Origin: Martelella lutilitoris
GTDB lineage: Bacteria; Pseudomonadota; Alphaproteobacteria; Rhizobiales; Rhizobiaceae
DNA: 64,000 nucleotides
Direction of reading: 5' to 3'
NCBI RefSeq assembly: GCF_016598595.1
Contig: NZ_CP066786.1
Coordinates: 2,627,501 to 2,691,500, forward strand
Under the pieces are notes generated by a model. That model was given only the letters and a program-made list of their open reading frames with translations, ran no database searches and was not told the origin of the DNA. The first letter of the stretch is position 1, and each line of letters starts with the position of its first letter. Shown piece by piece: positions 31,049 through 58,584 of the stretch. Made by a program: the position numbers and the translations under genes.

Positions 31049-31106
31049 CCTAGCCCTCGGTTAGCGCCAGTCTCGTCATGGCGCGGCGACGGGTCGGGAG
31101 GAGAAG

Positions 31107-32276
31107 ATGACGATTTCACACGCAGCCATTGTCGGCGCCGGCATTTCCGGACTGACGGCCGCTCTGGCGCTTGCCCGGCACGGCATTTCCAGCGAGATCT
31201 TCGAGCAGGCGGACGCGCTCGCCGAAGTCGGCGCCGGCCTGCAGATTTCTCCCAATGCCTCGCGCTGCCTGGCGAAGATCGGCGTTCTCGGCCGGCTCGA
31301 GGGCCAGTGGCGGGAGCCGAAGAAAGTGGCGCTGGCCTCGGGCCTGACCCTGAAGGAGCTCGCGCACGTTCCCGTCGGCGAAGCGCGCAAGCGCTGGGGC
31401 GCGCCCTATGGCACGCTGCACCGCGCGACGCTGCAGTCGGCGCTCAAACACGCCGTCGCGGATGAACCGCTCGCAACCCTCAGGCTCGGCGCCCGCATCG
31501 ACAAGGCAAACAGGGCAACGCTTTCCGGCAGAACGGAAAAACCCGCCGATGTCATCATCTGCGCCGATGGTGTGTGGTCGCACAGCCGACGGCAGATCAA
31601 GGGGGCGCCGGAAGCGCGCTTTTCCGGCAACATCGCCTGGCGTTTCGTCCTCTCTTCCGAAGACGCGCCCGGTTTTCTCGAGCGCGACAGCGTGACCGCT
31701 TTCATGGGGCCGATGGCCCACCTCGTCGCCTATCCGCTGCGCGATGTCGGCGGCTTCAACCTCGTCGCCATCGCCGCCGGCGCAAGCGCCGGGGAAGCCT
31801 GGCACACCGAGGTCGACAGCAGCTGGAAAATGGCGCTGGAACGCCACTTCAAGGGCTGGAACCCGGAGCTGACCCGGCTGTTTTCCGCCGACAAGCCAAC
31901 CTTCTGGCCACTTTACGAGGCGGGCGAAGGCAACTGGCACAACGGCAGCGACACAATCGTGATCGGCGATGCCGCCCACGCGCTGATGCCGTTTTCCGCG
32001 CAAGGGGCGGCGATGGCAATCGAGGACGGTTTCGAATTGGCCGCCTTCCTCGCCGGCATGGAAGCACCCCAGGCCTTCGAGGCCTTCGTCGCCCATCGCA
32101 AGCCGCGCCTTGCGGCGCTGCGCAAGCGCACCAGCTTCAACAAGTTCGCCTATCACGCGTCAGGTCCGATCAGAATCGGCCGCGATATCGTGCTGAAACT
32201 GCGTTCTCCCGAGACGCTCGCCGGCGAACTTGACTGGCTCTATGGCTATCACGCTTACGGGCTCGACCGGATCTGA
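31107..32276 (+). CDS. FAD-dependent monooxygenase (aromatic hydroxylase type)
   Basis: The 389-residue flavoprotein has a Rossmann GAGISGL (residues 10-16), a middle ADGVWSHSR (the DG motif) and GDAAHALMPFSAQGAAMAIEDG binding the FAD ribityl chain. It belongs to the salicylate hydroxylase / UbiH-like class A monooxygenases; the substrate is unknown. Its ribosome binding site is unusually strong, GGGAGGAG at 31096-31103. It is complementary to the loops of the anti-SD small RNA at 51099-51223, which makes this gene a predicted target. Confidence 0.9.
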   Translation: MTISHAAIVGAGISGLTAALALARHGISSEIFEQADALAEVGAGLQISPNASRCLAKIGVLGRLEGQWREPKKVALASGLTLKELAHVPVGEARKRWGAPYGTLHRATLQSALKHAVADEPLATLRLGARIDKANRATLSGRTEKPADVIICADGVWSHSRRQIKGAPEARFSGNIAWRFVLSSEDAPGFLERDSVTAFMGPMAHLVAYPLRDVGGFNLVAIAAGASAGEAWHTEVDSSWKMALERHFKGWNPELTRLFSADKPTFWPLYEAGEGNWHNGSDTIVIGDAAHALMPFSAQGAAMAIEDGFELAAFLAGMEAPQAFEAFVAHRKPRLAALRKRTSFNKFAYHASGPIRIGRDIVLKLRSPETLAGELDWLYGYHAYGLDRI

Positions 32277-48042: not shown

Positions 48043-48304
48043 GCGCCTCGGCCGATCCGCGCCCCTCATTGCGCCAAGCTGTTTGACTATCGGGTGCACG
48101 GCTCCTATCACAGTCTATTAGAAGGCGGAAAATCAAACCGGATGTGCCGCACGTGACGACAGCAAGACATGGCAGGCAACCGCGGGCAAGGTGCGACGCC
48201 GGCGGCAGGCTTCACATCTCGATGAGCGGAGGCATGGCGGCGAGACAGGCAACAGGGGAGCTTGCGATGCGATCGAGAGCCGTTTCTTTTCTACGGGTTC
48301 CTGA

Positions 48305-50890
48305 ATGGCGCTGCTGAAGAACGCCAGGATCCCGCGCGACAGGCGTTCCACGATCAGGCTCTACGCGGCGCTGACGGTGCTGTTCTTCGCGACGCTGGCG
48401 GCGGGAACGGTTTTCGGCGGGCTTGCCATCCGCGATGCGATCCGCCAGGAACGCCATGAACAGGCGCAAGCGCGCGCCGAAGGCTTCGCAAAGGCGCTGA
48501 AATCGGTGTTGCAACTGACCGACAATGTCGGCCGGGCTCTTTCCGAGGCCTTTGATGACGATGGTCTTGAAGGCTACGATAGCTCGGTCAACGCCTATCT
48601 GTCTTCCGCGCCCTGGACACGGGCCGTCATCCTCAACCGCGACGGCGCAACCCGCGTTTCGCCGCAGGACCTGTCTGTCGCCATGCGAGCGCTTCCGGTT
48701 CCGGACGACGGCGCCGATCAGCGCAAGATCTTCGGTCCCTTCGAACTTCCGAACGGCGAGCGGGTCCTCGTCTACCGCTATTCCTTCGATGCAGGCAACC
48801 TGGAACTCGTCGTCGGTTTCGAGGCGATCCTCGAAGCTGTCGGCCTTCTCGAACTCGAGGAAACGACACAGCTCAGCGTCAGGACCGTGGCAACCCCCGG
48901 TCCCGACGAACTCGCCACGGCCGGCGAAAGCGGCCTGGCCGTCGAAGACGCGATCCGTGAGGATGTCCGCGTCGACAACGCGACCTGGACCATCAGCGTG
49001 GCCCCGCGCGCCCTTTCGGATGGCCTGTTCGACTGGGGCCGGGCATTCCGGCTCGCCGCCGGCCTGCTCGTCATTGCTTTTGTTGCGCCCTTCATCGCCC
49101 TGCTCCTGCTGTTTCGCGCGCGTCTCAGGGACAATGTCAACATCCGCAAAAGCATGATGGCGGTCGACAATCTGCCCCGCCATCTCGATGTCGCCCTCAA
49201 CGCTTCCAATATCGGCCTGTGGGAACATGATCTGGAAACAAACGTCCAGATCTGGGACGACCAGATTCTGCGAATCTACGGCATTGAGGGAGAGAGCCAT
49301 GTGCAGACATTCGAAAGCTGGTGCGCCAGACTGCACCCGGACGATCAGGCCCGTTTCCGCCGTTTCAGCTGGGAGGATGCCGAAAACGACAAGGGTTTCC
49401 TGACCGAATACCGCATCATAACGCCGGGCGGGCTGGAGAAGACCATTCGTTCCGCCGGCAACGCCTATCGCGATGCCGACGGCAAGCGCAAATTCGTCGG
49501 CGTGAACTGGGACGTTTCGGCCGACAAGGCGCTTCAGGAGGCGCTGGCGGAGGCCAAGGCCAGGGCGGAGGAACAGAATGTCGCGCTGGAGGAGGCCCGC
49601 GCACGCATGGAAGAGATCGCCCTGCAGGATACGCTGACGGGCATTCCCAACCGGCGCCATTTCGAGAAGCGGCTGGCTGCCGCCCAGGCCGGCGGCGCCA
49701 TGCCGGAAGGCATGAACATCGTCTTGATCGACCTTGACGGGTTCAAGACCATCAACGACACAATGGGACATTTCTTCGGCGACGACGTTCTGCGCTACGC
49801 TGCCGAAACCTTCATGAAAAATCTCGGCCCCGACGATTTTCTGGCGCGCACCGGCGGCGACGAATTCGTCGCCCTGATGCCGGCGACGAGCGATGTCGAG
49901 AACTTCGCCGCCACCGTCACGGCGGCCTTCTCGAAACCGCTGCGCATTGACGGGCGCTCCTGCCGGCTGGGCGTCAGTCTCGGCATCGCCACCGCGGAGG
50001 ATTCGAGCGACACGGCCTCGGATCTTCTGATCAAGGCGGACCTGGCGCTGTACGAAGCCAAGAATCGCGGGCGCGGGCGCACGGTGAACTACACCAGCAA
50101 CCTGATGGCGAAGACCTTTGCCCTCAAGCGCCTGGCCGACGAGCTTCAGGAGGCGGTCGAGAACGGCGAGATCACCGCCCACTACCAGCCGATCTTCGAT
50201 GTCCGGACCTCGACGATCGTCGGCGTGGAGGCGCTCGCCCGCTGGCAGCATCCGCGCCGGGGCGTGCTCGAGCCGAAAGCCTTCCTCGATGTCGCCGAAC
50301 AGCTGGGGCTGCTGCACGCGATCGATGACACCGTCTTCCAGAAAGCGGTCGCCGTGATCGAACGCAGCAAGGCGGCGGGCGTGCCGCTGCCCGGCATCTC
50401 GGTCAACATCTCCTCCCAGCGCCTGCGCGACCCGTTGCTTCTCGACCAGCTCGCTTCGATCAACCTTCCGCCGGACACGGTTCACTTCGAACTGCTCGAA
50501 TCGATCCCCTTCGACCGGCCGGACACCGCCCTGATCAAAACCGTCAACGCCATCAGGAAACTTGGCATCGGCATCGATCTCGACGATTTCGGCTCGGGCT
50601 ATGCCTCGCTCGTGGGCCTCAACCAGGTGCGTCCCGACCGGCTGAAGATCGCCGGCCAGCTCATTGCCCCGATCACCGGCTCGGAGGAAAGTCTGCAGAT
50701 CGTCGAGACCATCGTGCGTATCGCGCGGACCTTCAACATCGGCGTCATTTGCGAGGGCGTTACCTCGAAGGCCCACTACAAGAAACTGGAAGCGCTTGGC
50801 TGCTTCCTCCAGCAGGGCTATTATTTCTCGCGCCCCATGGATGAGGACCAGTTCATCGACTTCATGCGCACGCGCAGCGGCCTCGAATGA
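48305..50890 (+). CDS. Membrane GGDEF-EAL protein with periplasmic and PAS sensor domains
   Basis: This 861-residue c-di-GMP enzyme has a membrane helix near 19-41, a periplasmic sensor up to about 255, a second helix (about 257-279), then a PAS domain (NASNIGLWEHDLETNVQIWD). GGDEF at 517-521 is intact (active diguanylate cyclase expected). EAL at 642-644 is followed by the usual Asn, Glu, DDFGSGYAS, Lys and QGYYF residues, so phosphodiesterase activity is also likely. The EGV region reads CEGVTSK rather than AEGVET. It is a paralogue of the truncated EAL gene at the window's left end. Confidence 0.93.
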   Translation: MALLKNARIPRDRRSTIRLYAALTVLFFATLAAGTVFGGLAIRDAIRQERHEQAQARAEGFAKALKSVLQLTDNVGRALSEAFDDDGLEGYDSSVNAYLSSAPWTRAVILNRDGATRVSPQDLSVAMRALPVPDDGADQRKIFGPFELPNGERVLVYRYSFDAGNLELVVGFEAILEAVGLLELEETTQLSVRTVATPGPDELATAGESGLAVEDAIREDVRVDNATWTISVAPRALSDGLFDWGRAFRLAAGLLVIAFVAPFIALLLLFRARLRDNVNIRKSMMAVDNLPRHLDVALNASNIGLWEHDLETNVQIWDDQILRIYGIEGESHVQTFESWCARLHPDDQARFRRFSWEDAENDKGFLTEYRIITPGGLEKTIRSAGNAYRDADGKRKFVGVNWDVSADKALQEALAEAKARAEEQNVALEEARARMEEIALQDTLTGIPNRRHFEKRLAAAQAGGAMPEGMNIVLIDLDGFKTINDTMGHFFGDDVLRYAAETFMKNLGPDDFLARTGGDEFVALMPATSDVENFAATVTAAFSKPLRIDGRSCRLGVSLGIATAEDSSDTASDLLIKADLALYEAKNRGRGRTVNYTSNLMAKTFALKRLADELQEAVENGEITAHYQPIFDVRTSTIVGVEALARWQHPRRGVLEPKAFLDVAEQLGLLHAIDDTVFQKAVAVIERSKAAGVPLPGISVNISSQRLRDPLLLDQLASINLPPDTVHFELLESIPFDRPDTALIKTVNAIRKLGIGIDLDDFGSGYASLVGLNQVRPDRLKIAGQLIAPITGSEESLQIVETIVRIARTFNIGVICEGVTSKAHYKKLEALGCFLQQGYYFSRPMDEDQFIDFMRTRSGLE

Positions 50891-51098
50891 CCCGGAAACG
50901 GGCGACGGCAAGCCCGTCATGCGGCAGCCGAAACGGCCGCCGCGCGTCGACATGCACGCAATGCATACCTTATATGTCGAGATGGCACTGCAAAATTCGG
51001 GGCCGGGCGCGTATATAAGGGTCAACAGAGTGAACGAGCGGACATCAAAACGATTTGACAAAAGCTCAGTCACTTGGCCCGGTTTCCGGGTTGGAATT
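50891..51098. promoter_or_regulatory. Region upstream of the anti-SD small RNA with dyads
   Basis: No gene is visible. It contains a 7-bp inverted repeat TCGACAT (50947-50953) / ATGTCGA (50974-50980) enclosing ATGCA-N5-TGCAT (50952-50966), a TATATA hexamer at 51012-51017 and TTGACA at 51055-51060. I cannot choose a promoter with confidence; the small RNA must start near 51099 if it has the usual length. Confidence 0.35.
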
Positions 51099-51223
51099 CG
51101 AAGCCGCGCACTCCTCCTCCTCCCAGCGCGCTTCGATAGGTTGACGACGCTCCTCCTCCCAGTCGTCGACCAACGCAAATGACGCTCACCGGATCCTCCT
51201 CCCCCGGTGAGCGTTATTTTTTT
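51099..51223 (+). ncRNA. Anti-Shine-Dalgarno small RNA of the alpha-r14/NfeR1 (cuckoo RNA) type
   Basis: Three consecutive hairpins each display the same loop 10-mer TCCTCCTCCC, which is complementary to GGGAGGAGGA and mimics the 16S anti-SD. Hairpin 1 is 51101-51133 (8 bp, one bulge), hairpin 2 is 51139-51171 (10 bp with one GU) and hairpin 3 is 51182-51214 (11 bp, perfect), followed by TAT and a run of T residues that make it the terminator. Total length of about 125 bases and three motif copies match the known alpha-r14 family (S. meliloti NfeR1), which regulates mRNAs by pairing to ribosome binding sites. The 5' end is inferred. Confidence 0.85.
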
Positions 51224-51520
51224 GCGCATTGCCCATACACCTCCCCCTTATTCTCAGCGCCGTGCCTGCAAGACCGACTGCGCGCCGTCGCCGGGCACCT
51301 CCCGGACGCGCGCCCGTGCCCGCAACAGGTATCGACTTTTGCCGCTTATTCCTGCCCTCACAACAGCCTTTGCGGCCCTTCTCCTGCGGCGCCATGCGGC
51401 AGACGCATAGCGGCTTTACCGCAAACCCACTGACGGCGGCGGGCGGCAGGGCCTATATCCGGTTCATCAGAAATTGAGGCGCCGCAAAACACGGGCGCCG
51501 CAAAAACAGGAGAGAGAAAC
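51224..51520. other. Intergenic stretch between the small RNA and the first DUF1127 gene
   Basis: This roughly 300-base region has only low-quality open frames with Arg/Pro-rich, shadow-like composition. It must contain the promoter of the DUF1127 gene unless the RNA terminator is read through. I see no further hairpin of note. Confidence 0.5.
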
Positions 51521-51664
51521 ATGAGCATGGCTCGTTCGTTCAATAACTGGATCAAGTACCGCCAGACCGTTTCGGAACTCGGCCGCATGAATGCGCGCGA
51601 ACTGTCCGACCTCGGCATCAACCGTGACGATATCCGTCGCGTTGCCCGCAAGGCCGCATTCTAA
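51521..51664 (+). CDS. DUF1127 small Arg-rich protein, copy 1
   Basis: The 47-residue protein MSMARSFNNWIKYRQTVSEL continues with GRMNARELSDLGINRDDIRRVARKAAF. It carries the DUF1127 core (LG-M-xxRELxDLGIxRxDI) and is basic. Such proteins bind RNA or regulators: in Agrobacterium they affect phosphate and C1 metabolism, and in Rhodobacter CcaF1 binds RNA. The ATG at 51521 follows AGGAGA; an ATG two codons later is possible. An intrinsic terminator follows at once. It lies 300 bases downstream of an anti-SD small RNA, similar to the ccaF1-CcsR arrangement in Rhodobacter. Confidence 0.9.
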   Translation: MSMARSFNNWIKYRQTVSELGRMNARELSDLGINRDDIRRVARKAAF

Positions 51665-51813: not shown

Positions 51814-51860
51814 TTGTGCAACCTAATGCACAAATGCATGGCAGTTGCATAATAACTGCA
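51814..51860. promoter_or_regulatory. Phased TGCA dyads upstream of DUF1127 copy 2 (lux-box-like)
   Basis: A perfect inverted repeat TTGTGCA / TGCACAA with 6-base centre (51814-51833) and a second, GCAGTT / AACTGC with 7-base centre (51841-51859), sit about 85-130 bases before the DUF1127 ATG. TGCA recurs at 51817, 51827, 51835, 51846 and 51857, spaced 8-11 bases. The first dyad resembles the 18-20 bp boxes bound by LuxR-type regulators such as TraR (TGTGCA...TGCACA). The regulator is unknown and no luxR gene is in the window. Confidence 0.5.
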
Positions 51861-51944
51861 CACGACGCATCGCCGTTTCCCTTGTATTCTTCCGGTCAAA
51901 ATGAATGCAGCACGAAGCTGCCGGACATATTCGAGGAAACACCC

Positions 51945-52088
51945 ATGCATCCCTTCGACTTCACCATGAAATGGTTCAGCTACCGCCGCACGCGCGCCCA
52001 ACTGCGCAATCTTACCGCCGCAGAACTCAAGGATATCGGCCTGCTGCCGGGCGACATCGACCGCGTCGCGGCCCGCGCATTCCGCTGA
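51945..52088 (+). CDS. DUF1127 small Arg-rich protein, copy 2
   Basis: The 47-residue protein MHPFDFTMKWFSYRRTRAQL continues with RNLTAAELKDIGLLPGDIDRVAARAFR. It keeps the DUF1127 core (LRNLTAAELKDIGLLPGDI) and a basic surface. The ATG at 51945 has a GAGGAA ribosome binding site 5 bases upstream. It is a paralogue of the gene at 51521-51664 and has its own, distinct upstream region with inverted repeats. Its role is unknown; by family it may be a small RNA-binding or regulatory protein. Confidence 0.9.
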   Translation: MHPFDFTMKWFSYRRTRAQLRNLTAAELKDIGLLPGDIDRVAARAFR

Positions 52089-56925: not shown

Positions 56926-58584
56926 TCACATATTCGGGTAAACCGGTCCTTCGCCGCCCTGCGGCGGGACCCAGGTGATGTTCTGGTTCGGGTCCTTGAT
57001 GTCGCAGGTCTTGCAGTGCACGCAGTTCTGGGCGTTGATCACGAATTTTTCCGTGCCGTCCTCCTCGACCCATTCATAAACGCCGGCCGGACAGTAGCGG
57101 CCGGAAGGACCCGCATAGATCTCGTACTCGGAACGCTTCTGCAGCGCCATATCCTTGACCTTCAGATGGACCGGCTGGTCCTCCTCGTGATTGGTGTTGG
57201 ACAGGAACACCGAGGACAGACGGTCGAAGGTCAGGACGCCATCGGGTTTCGGATAGTCGATCGGCTTGTGCTTGGCTGCCGGCTCCAGCGACGCGGCGTC
57301 GGTCTTGCCGTGCTTCATCGTGCCGAAAAAGGAGAAGCCGAACAGCGTGTTGGTCCACATGTCGAGACCGCCGAGCGCGATGCCGGCATAGGTCCCGAGC
57401 TTCGACCACAGCGGCTTGACGTTGCGGACCTTCTTCAGGTCACGGCCAATGGCGCCGTCGCGCCAGTCCGCCTCGATCTCGGCGATCTCGTCGTGTTCGC
57501 GGCCCGCGGCAAGCGCATCCGCCACGCGTTCGGCGGCGAGCATGCCGGAGAGCACCGCATTGTGAGACCCCTTGATGCGCGGAACGTTGACGAAGCCCGC
57601 CGAACAGCCGATCAGCGCCCCGCCGGGGAAGGAAAGCTTCGGAACGGACTGATAGCCGCCCTCGGAGATCGCCCGTGCGCCATAGGAGATGCGCTTTGCC
57701 CCCTCAAAGGTCGACGCGATCGCCGGATGGGTCTTGAAGCGCTGGAACTCCTCGAAGGGCGAGAGATAGGGGTTCTTGTAATTCAGGTGCAGCACGAAGC
57801 CGACGGCCACCTGGTTATCTTCCAGATGGTAGAGGAAGGAGCCGCCGCCGGTTCTGGCGTCGAGCGGCCAGCCGAAGGAATGCTGGACGAGGCCCGGCTT
57901 GCTTTGCTCGGGAGTGACTTCCCACAATTCCTTCAGGCCGATGCCGTATTTCTGCGGCTCGCGGCCCTCATCGAGTCCGAATTTGGCGATCAGTTGCTTG
58001 GCAAGCGAACCGCGCACGCCCTCGCCGATCAGCACGTATTTTCCGAGAAGCGCCATGCCGCGGGTAAAGTTCGGGCCGGGCGTGCCGTCGCGCTCCACGC
58101 CCATGTCGCCGGTGGCGACGCCGATGACCGCGCCGGCGTCATCATAAAGCACTTCGGCCGCGGCAAATCCGGGATAGATTTCCACGCCCAGCGCCTCGGC
58201 CTTTTCGGCCAGCCATCGACAGACATTGCCGAGCGATACGATAAAATTGCCGTGATTGTTCATCAGCGGCGGCATCACGAAATTCGGCAGTGTGATCGAA
58301 CCGGCCGGCCCAAGCAGCAGAAAGCGGTCGCGCGTCACCTCGGTCCTGAAGGGATGGCCCTCCTCCTCCCGCCAGCCGGGCAGAAGGGCATCAATGCCGG
58401 CAGGATCGACGACGGCGCCCGAGAGTATATGGGCGCCGACCTCGGCGCCCTTCTCCAGCACGACGACGCTCAAGTCCTCGTTGCGCTGCTTCAGCCGAAT
58501 GGCGGCGGCAAGACCGGATGGACCGGCCCCGACGATCACCACATCGAATTCCATGCTTTCACGTTCCGGCAGTTCTTCAGCCAT
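56926..58584 (-). CDS. Electron transfer flavoprotein-ubiquinone oxidoreductase
   Basis: ETF-QO passes electrons from ETF (fed by acyl-CoA and amino-acid dehydrogenases) to ubiquinone at the inner membrane. The 552-residue protein has the FAD Rossmann site (VVIVGAGPSGLAAAIRL), AHILSGAVVDP, the quinone/membrane-inserting region, and a C-terminal [4Fe-4S] domain with CPAGVYEW and NCVHCKTCDIKDP. The length matches the family. It is followed, 73 bases later on the same strand, by the lipid kinase gene. Confidence 0.95.
   Translation of the reverse strand: MAEELPERESMEFDVVIVGAGPSGLAAAIRLKQRNEDLSVVVLEKGAEVGAHILSGAVVDPAGIDALLPGWREEEGHPFRTEVTRDRFLLLGPAGSITLPNFVMPPLMNNHGNFIVSLGNVCRWLAEKAEALGVEIYPGFAAAEVLYDDAGAVIGVATGDMGVERDGTPGPNFTRGMALLGKYVLIGEGVRGSLAKQLIAKFGLDEGREPQKYGIGLKELWEVTPEQSKPGLVQHSFGWPLDARTGGGSFLYHLEDNQVAVGFVLHLNYKNPYLSPFEEFQRFKTHPAIASTFEGAKRISYGARAISEGGYQSVPKLSFPGGALIGCSAGFVNVPRIKGSHNAVLSGMLAAERVADALAAGREHDEIAEIEADWRDGAIGRDLKKVRNVKPLWSKLGTYAGIALGGLDMWTNTLFGFSFFGTMKHGKTDAASLEPAAKHKPIDYPKPDGVLTFDRLSSVFLSNTNHEEDQPVHLKVKDMALQKRSEYEIYAGPSGRYCPAGVYEWVEEDGTEKFVINAQNCVHCKTCDIKDPNQNITWVPPQGGEGPVYPNM

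Follow-up and report, generated by a model that had tools for sequence, protein, structure and literature searches.

The closest described system to the locus studied here is NfeR1 of S. meliloti, a small RNA (sRNA) that folds into three hairpins with an unpaired CCUCCUCCC and includes a terminator hairpin. Its three loops act redundantly and silence mRNAs at their ribosome binding sites, and its gene is activated by LsrB, whose site, TGCA-N6-GCAT, lies at -72 to -60, as described in PMC10746234. Another system to be compared is the CcsR1-4 / ccaF1 operon of Rhodobacter sphaeroides (the "cuckoo" RNAs, CIN1), in which RNAs with CCUCCUCCC loops directly follow a gene for a small DUF1127 protein and are transcribed from an RpoHI/RpoHII promoter. 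Short DUF1127 proteins often accompany CcsR-like sRNAs in alphaproteobacteria, an arrangement labelled the CIN1 locus (PMC10253847), and this association as such is already known. Finally, AbcR1 and AbcR2 (ar15, suhB-like) of Rhizobiales also carry unpaired anti-Shine-Dalgarno (anti-SD) motifs and are controlled by LsrB/VtlR (PMC7143759, PMC7486931), a likeness to the RNA discussed below; in Agrobacterium, abcR1 and a small-protein gene are both directly activated by VtlR (PMC7486931).

We report here on a locus of this kind in a 64-kb stretch of Martelella DNA (the window, the whole of the DNA analysed; the features described lie on its plus strand unless stated otherwise). We consider it very probable, from the comparison of sequences, that this locus encodes a trans-acting ar14 sRNA, one of three in its genome, that it is the counterpart of the NfeR1 locus, and that it would be transcribed from an LsrB/VtlR-type promoter over about 51024-51223 and act through loops that block ribosome binding sites. 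The RNA itself was to be expected from a family studied in Sinorhizobium, and the added value lies in a comparative map of the Martelella loci. Two separately published facts, the activation of NfeR1 by LsrB and the role of VtlR in Brucella as primary regulator of the DUF1127 proteins (PMC12595884), are joined by this map into one testable module.

A three-hairpin RNA of the ar14 family

An Rfam search of the window gave a single match above cut-off, ar14 (RF02344) at 51093-51219, which scores 96 bits against a curated cut-off of 58.8 and covers the full model (positions 1-123). This is the covariance search that had been proposed in a preliminary description of the locus, and it bears out the alpha-r14/NfeR1 family that had been named there. 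The "cuckoo" RNAs, which had been named in the same breath, must be dropped as a family for this RNA, the CcsR1 model (RF02791) giving 26.2 bits against a cut-off of 65.3; the 6C RNA, also considered as a family, falls below its cut-off as well.

With its terminator tail, the RNA extends over 51093-51223. Hairpins 1 (51098-51136), 2 (51139-51171) and 3 (51177-51219) present their anti-SD motifs at 51115-51124, 51151-51160 and 51194-51203, respectively, and TCCTCCTCCC is found unpaired once in each of the three loops. This motif occurs four times in the window against 0.15 expected (the maximum among 100 shuffles being 2), the fourth occurrence, at 58361, lying outside any Rfam match above cut-off. 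Folding of 51093-51223 yields -59 kcal/mol; shuffled versions average -30.35 (z -7.76), and none of 200 was equally stable. The hairpins and the motif of the preliminary description are thereby confirmed; the loops, called identical there, are not strictly so because loop 1 contains one extra TCC, and the start that had been placed at 51099 has to be moved by one base, the first stem beginning at 51098. The third hairpin had been taken to double as an intrinsic terminator, and by its sequence it qualifies as one, the stem 51177-51219 running into TTTTTTT (51217-51223); an automatic terminator scan, in which the maximal loop length is 8 whereas this ar14 loop has 11, does not list it.

A side observation concerns the length of the loops: from copy to copy and from species to species it changes in whole TCC units, in the manner of slippage, with the pairing motif intact. 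This can be seen at 51110-51125 in the window and in loop 2 of L003, L049, L053 and L060-L064, among others.

The ar14 model was searched in 41 genomes (the one that contains the window, 12 others of the genus, 12 of the family and 16 of the order) and found above cut-off in 25 of them. The 66 matches above cut-off correspond to 61 loci, five tandem second copies not being treated as separate, and 25 matches below cut-off were excluded. In an alignment of these 61 loci (58 distinct rows), a set biased in favour of pairing in so far as it was the ar14 model that served to collect it, 86.1% of the pair cells are standard, against 73.0% after shuffling and 37-49% after sliding, and two-sided changes are seen in 36 of the 37 base pairs (shuffled mean 25.5). 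Pairing is lowest in helix 1 (76.1%), and the loops are nearly invariant. Within the 13 Martelella loci that resemble the window in having a leader between promoter and RNA (window-type loci, see below), pairing reaches 99.3% (shuffled 97.9%) and four pairs show two-sided changes (shuffled 1.4); further pair types are no more numerous than in shuffles (11 vs 11.3). Three perfect CCTCCTCCC are retained in 52 of the 61 loci; when the loci are folded singly, 60 of them give three hairpin loops with CCTCC, and 54 have CCTCCTCC in all three.

A covariance score below threshold, together with poor conservation of the loops in relatives, had been named at the outset as what would speak against the family assignment. 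The ar14 score lies above the cut-off and relatives conserve the loops as well as the stems, and the sequence half of that objection therefore fails. One could also wonder whether the C-rich repeats simply code for protein or reflect low complexity, the hairpins being incidental, given that an open frame (50664-51182) spans most of the RNA and that the loops vary in length by one TCC unit. We regard this as so improbable that it can be set aside: the coding reading is ruled out because the stems change on both sides, as just described, and because some orthologs lack the possible GTG start codon of the leader, and the full Rfam match equally speaks against it. Judged by its sequence, the ar14 RNA of the window is a well-formed and well-conserved member of a known family, and its neighbourhood, too, is of a known type.

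Predicted loop pairing and candidate targets

By analogy with NfeR1, the loops of the window RNA should pair with GGAGG-rich sites. Each CCUCCUCCC loop could pair with GGAGG-rich ribosome binding sites, which would block the translation of several mRNAs. The preliminary description had singled out as a target an FAD monooxygenase gene that begins at 31107 (an FAD_binding_3 match) and is preceded by the candidate site GGGAGGAG at 31096-31103. This proposal keeps some of its force, for among 47 crude window genes the monooxygenase forms the strongest duplex with ar14 (-19.7 kcal/mol, an energy that, like the others in the window, relies on crude gene calls and on whichever of as many as eight candidate starts of a gene paired best). 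However, GGGAGGAG-N2-9-ATG is found 49 times in the genome (6 times in the reversed control), some of these sites not being at gene starts and one of them being the reverse strand of another ar14 copy. Moreover, the exact 8-mer precedes only five of the 13 Martelella orthologs of the monooxygenase, our own included; seven bases are present in four more, and the remaining four have fewer than seven or have lost the site. The gene at 31107 is then a fair candidate target, neither demonstrated nor conserved.

We also considered ntrB as a conserved target, but its predicted pairing in Martelella is weak: the start region of the gene before ntrC gives -10.5 kcal/mol in our genome, against -19.7 for the gene at 31107, and -6.5 to -15.7 in 11 Martelella, these values (from a set of 17 loci, L171 giving none) being duplex energies only. 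An NtrC site, TGC-N11-GCA, is absent from 50850-51030, and in PMC10746234 such a site was not evident outside plant symbionts. Since there is no NtrC-type site and pairing with ntrB is weak, these results lend no support to a nitrogen feedback loop like that of S. meliloti.

Predicted promoter and leader, and a candidate regulator

Upstream of the RNA, an LsrB/VtlR-like LysR box, TGCACGCAATGCAT (50953-50966), conforms to the TGCA-N6-GCAT motif of NfeR1 and is followed by a predicted -10 element, TATATA (51012-51017), from which transcription would be expected to start near 51024. The position of the box relative to this predicted start matches the NfeR1 wiring. Read by eye, the window stretch GCAT-ACC-TT-ATA-T shows one difference from the published VtlR core, GCAT-N3-TG-N3-T (PMC7486931). 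An alignment of 15 window-type loci (13 from Martelella and two others) has a conserved TGC[AG]-N6-GCAT, a partly conserved stretch and then a TATA element, the Martelella rows having TCAAC conserved in addition. A sigma-70 scan of the window did not report the sRNA promoter.

The box and the TATA element are found together within 420 nt upstream in 39 of the 40 Martelella ar14 loci (the box alone in all 40), against only 6 of the 21 loci outside Martelella. Although the rule applied allowed a variable gap, the distance from the box to the assumed start is 70-71 nt in all 45 loci with both elements. A stricter version of the pattern gives three matches in the whole genome of 4.79 Mb and none in the reversed control: the promoter of the window RNA, that of the DUF1127 gene that follows it in the window, and a stretch before a gene whose 55-aa product has no Pfam match. 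One promoter type, rare as judged by its motifs, is thus common to nearly all ar14 loci of Martelella, and in the window it recurs ahead of the adjacent small-protein gene. The third genome-wide match (L080, G000:C1:3105683-3105746, with the 55-aa gene at 1697-1864 of L080) may point to a further member of the regulon.

As the ar14 model begins about 69 nt downstream of the start that the conserved promoter implies (near 51024), we expect a primary transcript of about 200 nt that ends at the hairpin-3 terminator near 51223. The 115-130 nt transcript that was expected in the preliminary description is accordingly unlikely as a primary product, although processing may cut the primary transcript to about 125 nt. 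The predicted leader (51024-51092) ends in a short GC hairpin at 51076-51092, outside the Rfam model, and similar pairs can be seen by eye in other Martelella leader-type loci; this hairpin might be a processing boundary.

The same features can be compared in S. meliloti. The Ak57 record CP090106.1 (labelled plasmid, 3.7 Mb) contains two ar14 copies, of 109.2 and 108.5 bits, each behind a promoter of this kind, in the order tig, two ar14 copies, two DUF1127 genes, trmFO. The first copy has box, -10 and leader; the second has an exact TGCA-N6-GCAT box and a start almost at the RNA, without leader, which fits the published NfeR1. Because of this position and spacing, we infer that the second copy is NfeR1. 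The window is similar to it in its TGCA-N6-GCAT LysR box with a -10 element and in the order RNA - DUF1127 - DUF1127, and differs in the predicted leader of about 69 nt, in the NtrC site and ntrB pairing discussed above, and in its flanking genes: tblastn (1e-4) detected neither tig nor trmFO, be it in the window or in the 18 kb surrounding each further ar14 copy of the genome. The LysR-type box also distinguishes the window RNA from the CcsR RNAs with their RpoHI/RpoHII promoter.

Our genome harbours a LysR gene (L157, about C1:1239725-1240693) near two suhB-family RNAs and a thioredoxin-reductase-like gene (the latter by reading only), which is the arrangement described for lsrB/vtlR (PMC7143759, PMC12595884), and the first 50 residues of its product are 92% identical to an R. 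leguminosarum protein annotated VtlR. We think that an LsrB/VtlR-type LysR regulator most likely activates the sRNA promoter and, separately, the promoter of the neighbouring small DUF1127 gene. The AbcR-type RNAs are a different family from ar14, and our genome contains three separate suhB-family matches above cut-off.

Multiple ar14 copies and their DUF1127 neighbours

The window RNA had initially been presented as "the" family member of its strain. This view has to be abandoned, as three copies in the genome exceed the ar14 cut-off, with 105.3, 96.0 (the window copy) and 92.3 bits; a fourth match (C1:3481364, 33.9 bits) and five further ones of 25.3 bits or less are below cut-off and were not counted. 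With three copies in hand, and with a reliable northern signal reported from only one of the six S. meliloti copies in the conditions tested (PMC7143759), one may ask whether the window copy is silent and the active ar14 RNA one of the other two. We consider this rather unlikely, considering that structure and promoter are retained in the window-type loci of all 12 other Martelella genomes searched, the loop-1 motif being altered by one base in a single one of them (G010).

Two genes for small DUF1127 proteins, both of 47 aa, follow the RNA in the window. The first (51521-51664; PF06568, 52.3 bits, cut-off 23.3) begins about 300 nt after it, and the second lies at 51945-52088 (PF06568, 40.7 bits on 51954-52085). 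Their vicinity to an RNA with CCUCCUCCC loops corresponds to the CIN1-type arrangement. The other two copies of the genome are located 36 and 19 nt past the stop codon of a DUF1127 gene (PF06568, 55.7 and 57.1 bits), like the CcsR RNAs, whereas the window copy has no DUF1127 gene directly upstream. All three copies adjoin DUF1127 genes, and five of the seven DUF1127 genes of the genome are found at ar14 copies. Neither this linkage nor the promoter type common to both featured in the preliminary description.

This linkage extends to relatives, in which DUF1127 genes were detected with a profile whose seed was the protein of the window and not with Pfam, so that distant ones may be missed in the following counts. 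Within the flanks examined (about 1.5 kb), a same-strand DUF1127 gene is present at all three of our own copies, at 50 of the 61 loci and at 40 of the 40 Martelella loci; the 11 loci without such a gene in these flanks are all outside Martelella, and at least two of them (L041, L065) are shortened by a contig end. The gene ends no more than 150 nt before the RNA in 31 of the 61 loci. The 51521-type gene is absent from four of the 13 Martelella window-type loci, where only the second type follows the RNA. No paper that joins NfeR1 with DUF1127 was found in the literature searched, although the link may already be published.

The short distance to the downstream gene also raises the question of a role in cis, in which the ar14 terminator would be an attenuator or leader control of that DUF1127 gene and not part of a trans-acting sRNA; indeed, attenuation in the leader governs a DUF1127 gene of S. 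meliloti (PMC12218461). However, the DUF1127 gene of the window has, after the sRNA terminator, a LysR-type box of its own, TGCGGCAGACGCAT (51395-51408), with a -10 element CTATAT (51453-51458). Nine of the 13 Martelella window-type loci have a separate box + TATA promoter for the DUF1127 gene that follows the RNA, and in the 31 loci mentioned above the sRNA comes after, not before, the DUF1127 gene. In addition, PMC12218461 reports no intrinsic terminator in the attenuated S. meliloti leader. We conclude that a role in cis is very unlikely, and retain the trans-acting sRNA as the best explanation.

The 39 Martelella loci with the full promoter fall into two arrangements: promoter-DUF1127-ar14, which looks like a single operon, in 26 and promoter-leader-ar14 (the window type) in 13, with leaders of 41-76 nt. 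The resemblance between the promoters of the DUF1127-RNA copies and that of the window RNA suggests that a promoter-DUF1127-RNA unit may have lost its reading frame in the window. A broader scenario, which we put forward only tentatively and consider somewhat doubtful, would be that ar14 and DUF1127 form one LsrB/VtlR module in Rhizobiaceae, in which the RNA was primitively the 3' end of a DUF1127 mRNA, as in two of our three copies, and that the NfeR1-type RNAs, including that of the window, arose by loss of the frame, the leader being processed off, perhaps with the help of a DUF1127 protein. In Rhodobacter, CcaF1 reportedly helps in the processing of the CcsR RNAs. Our observations raise the question of whether DUF1127 proteins also act on RNAs encoded beside them outside Rhodobacter.

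Some further observations can be made on the surroundings of these loci. In the window, a gene next to the RNA encodes a GGDEF-EAL protein; among 16 loci from named genomes with a relative of this protein, the six most similar belong to Martelella, with M. lutilitoris first at 92% identity. A 1005-aa open frame on the minus strand (48212-51229), antisense to the GGDEF-EAL gene and to the sRNA, is most likely a high-GC artefact. The stretch 51827-51861, before the second DUF1127 gene, contains TGCACAAATGCAT and further TGCAT repeats; it looks like a LysR box in which the spacing is five rather than six, and S. meliloti as well as four other Martelella loci have close versions of it ahead of the same type of DUF1127 gene. 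At G008:C54:25-1021 (L074), three ar14-like matches of 47-50 bits, below cut-off, stand in a row with a spacing of about 445 nt, and two DUF1127 matches are found in the same 2.5 kb, which may represent a divergent tandem array. Finally, in the Martelella locus L050 (G009:C4:247821-250947), the small DUF1127 gene is tandemly duplicated, with a box of its own for each copy.
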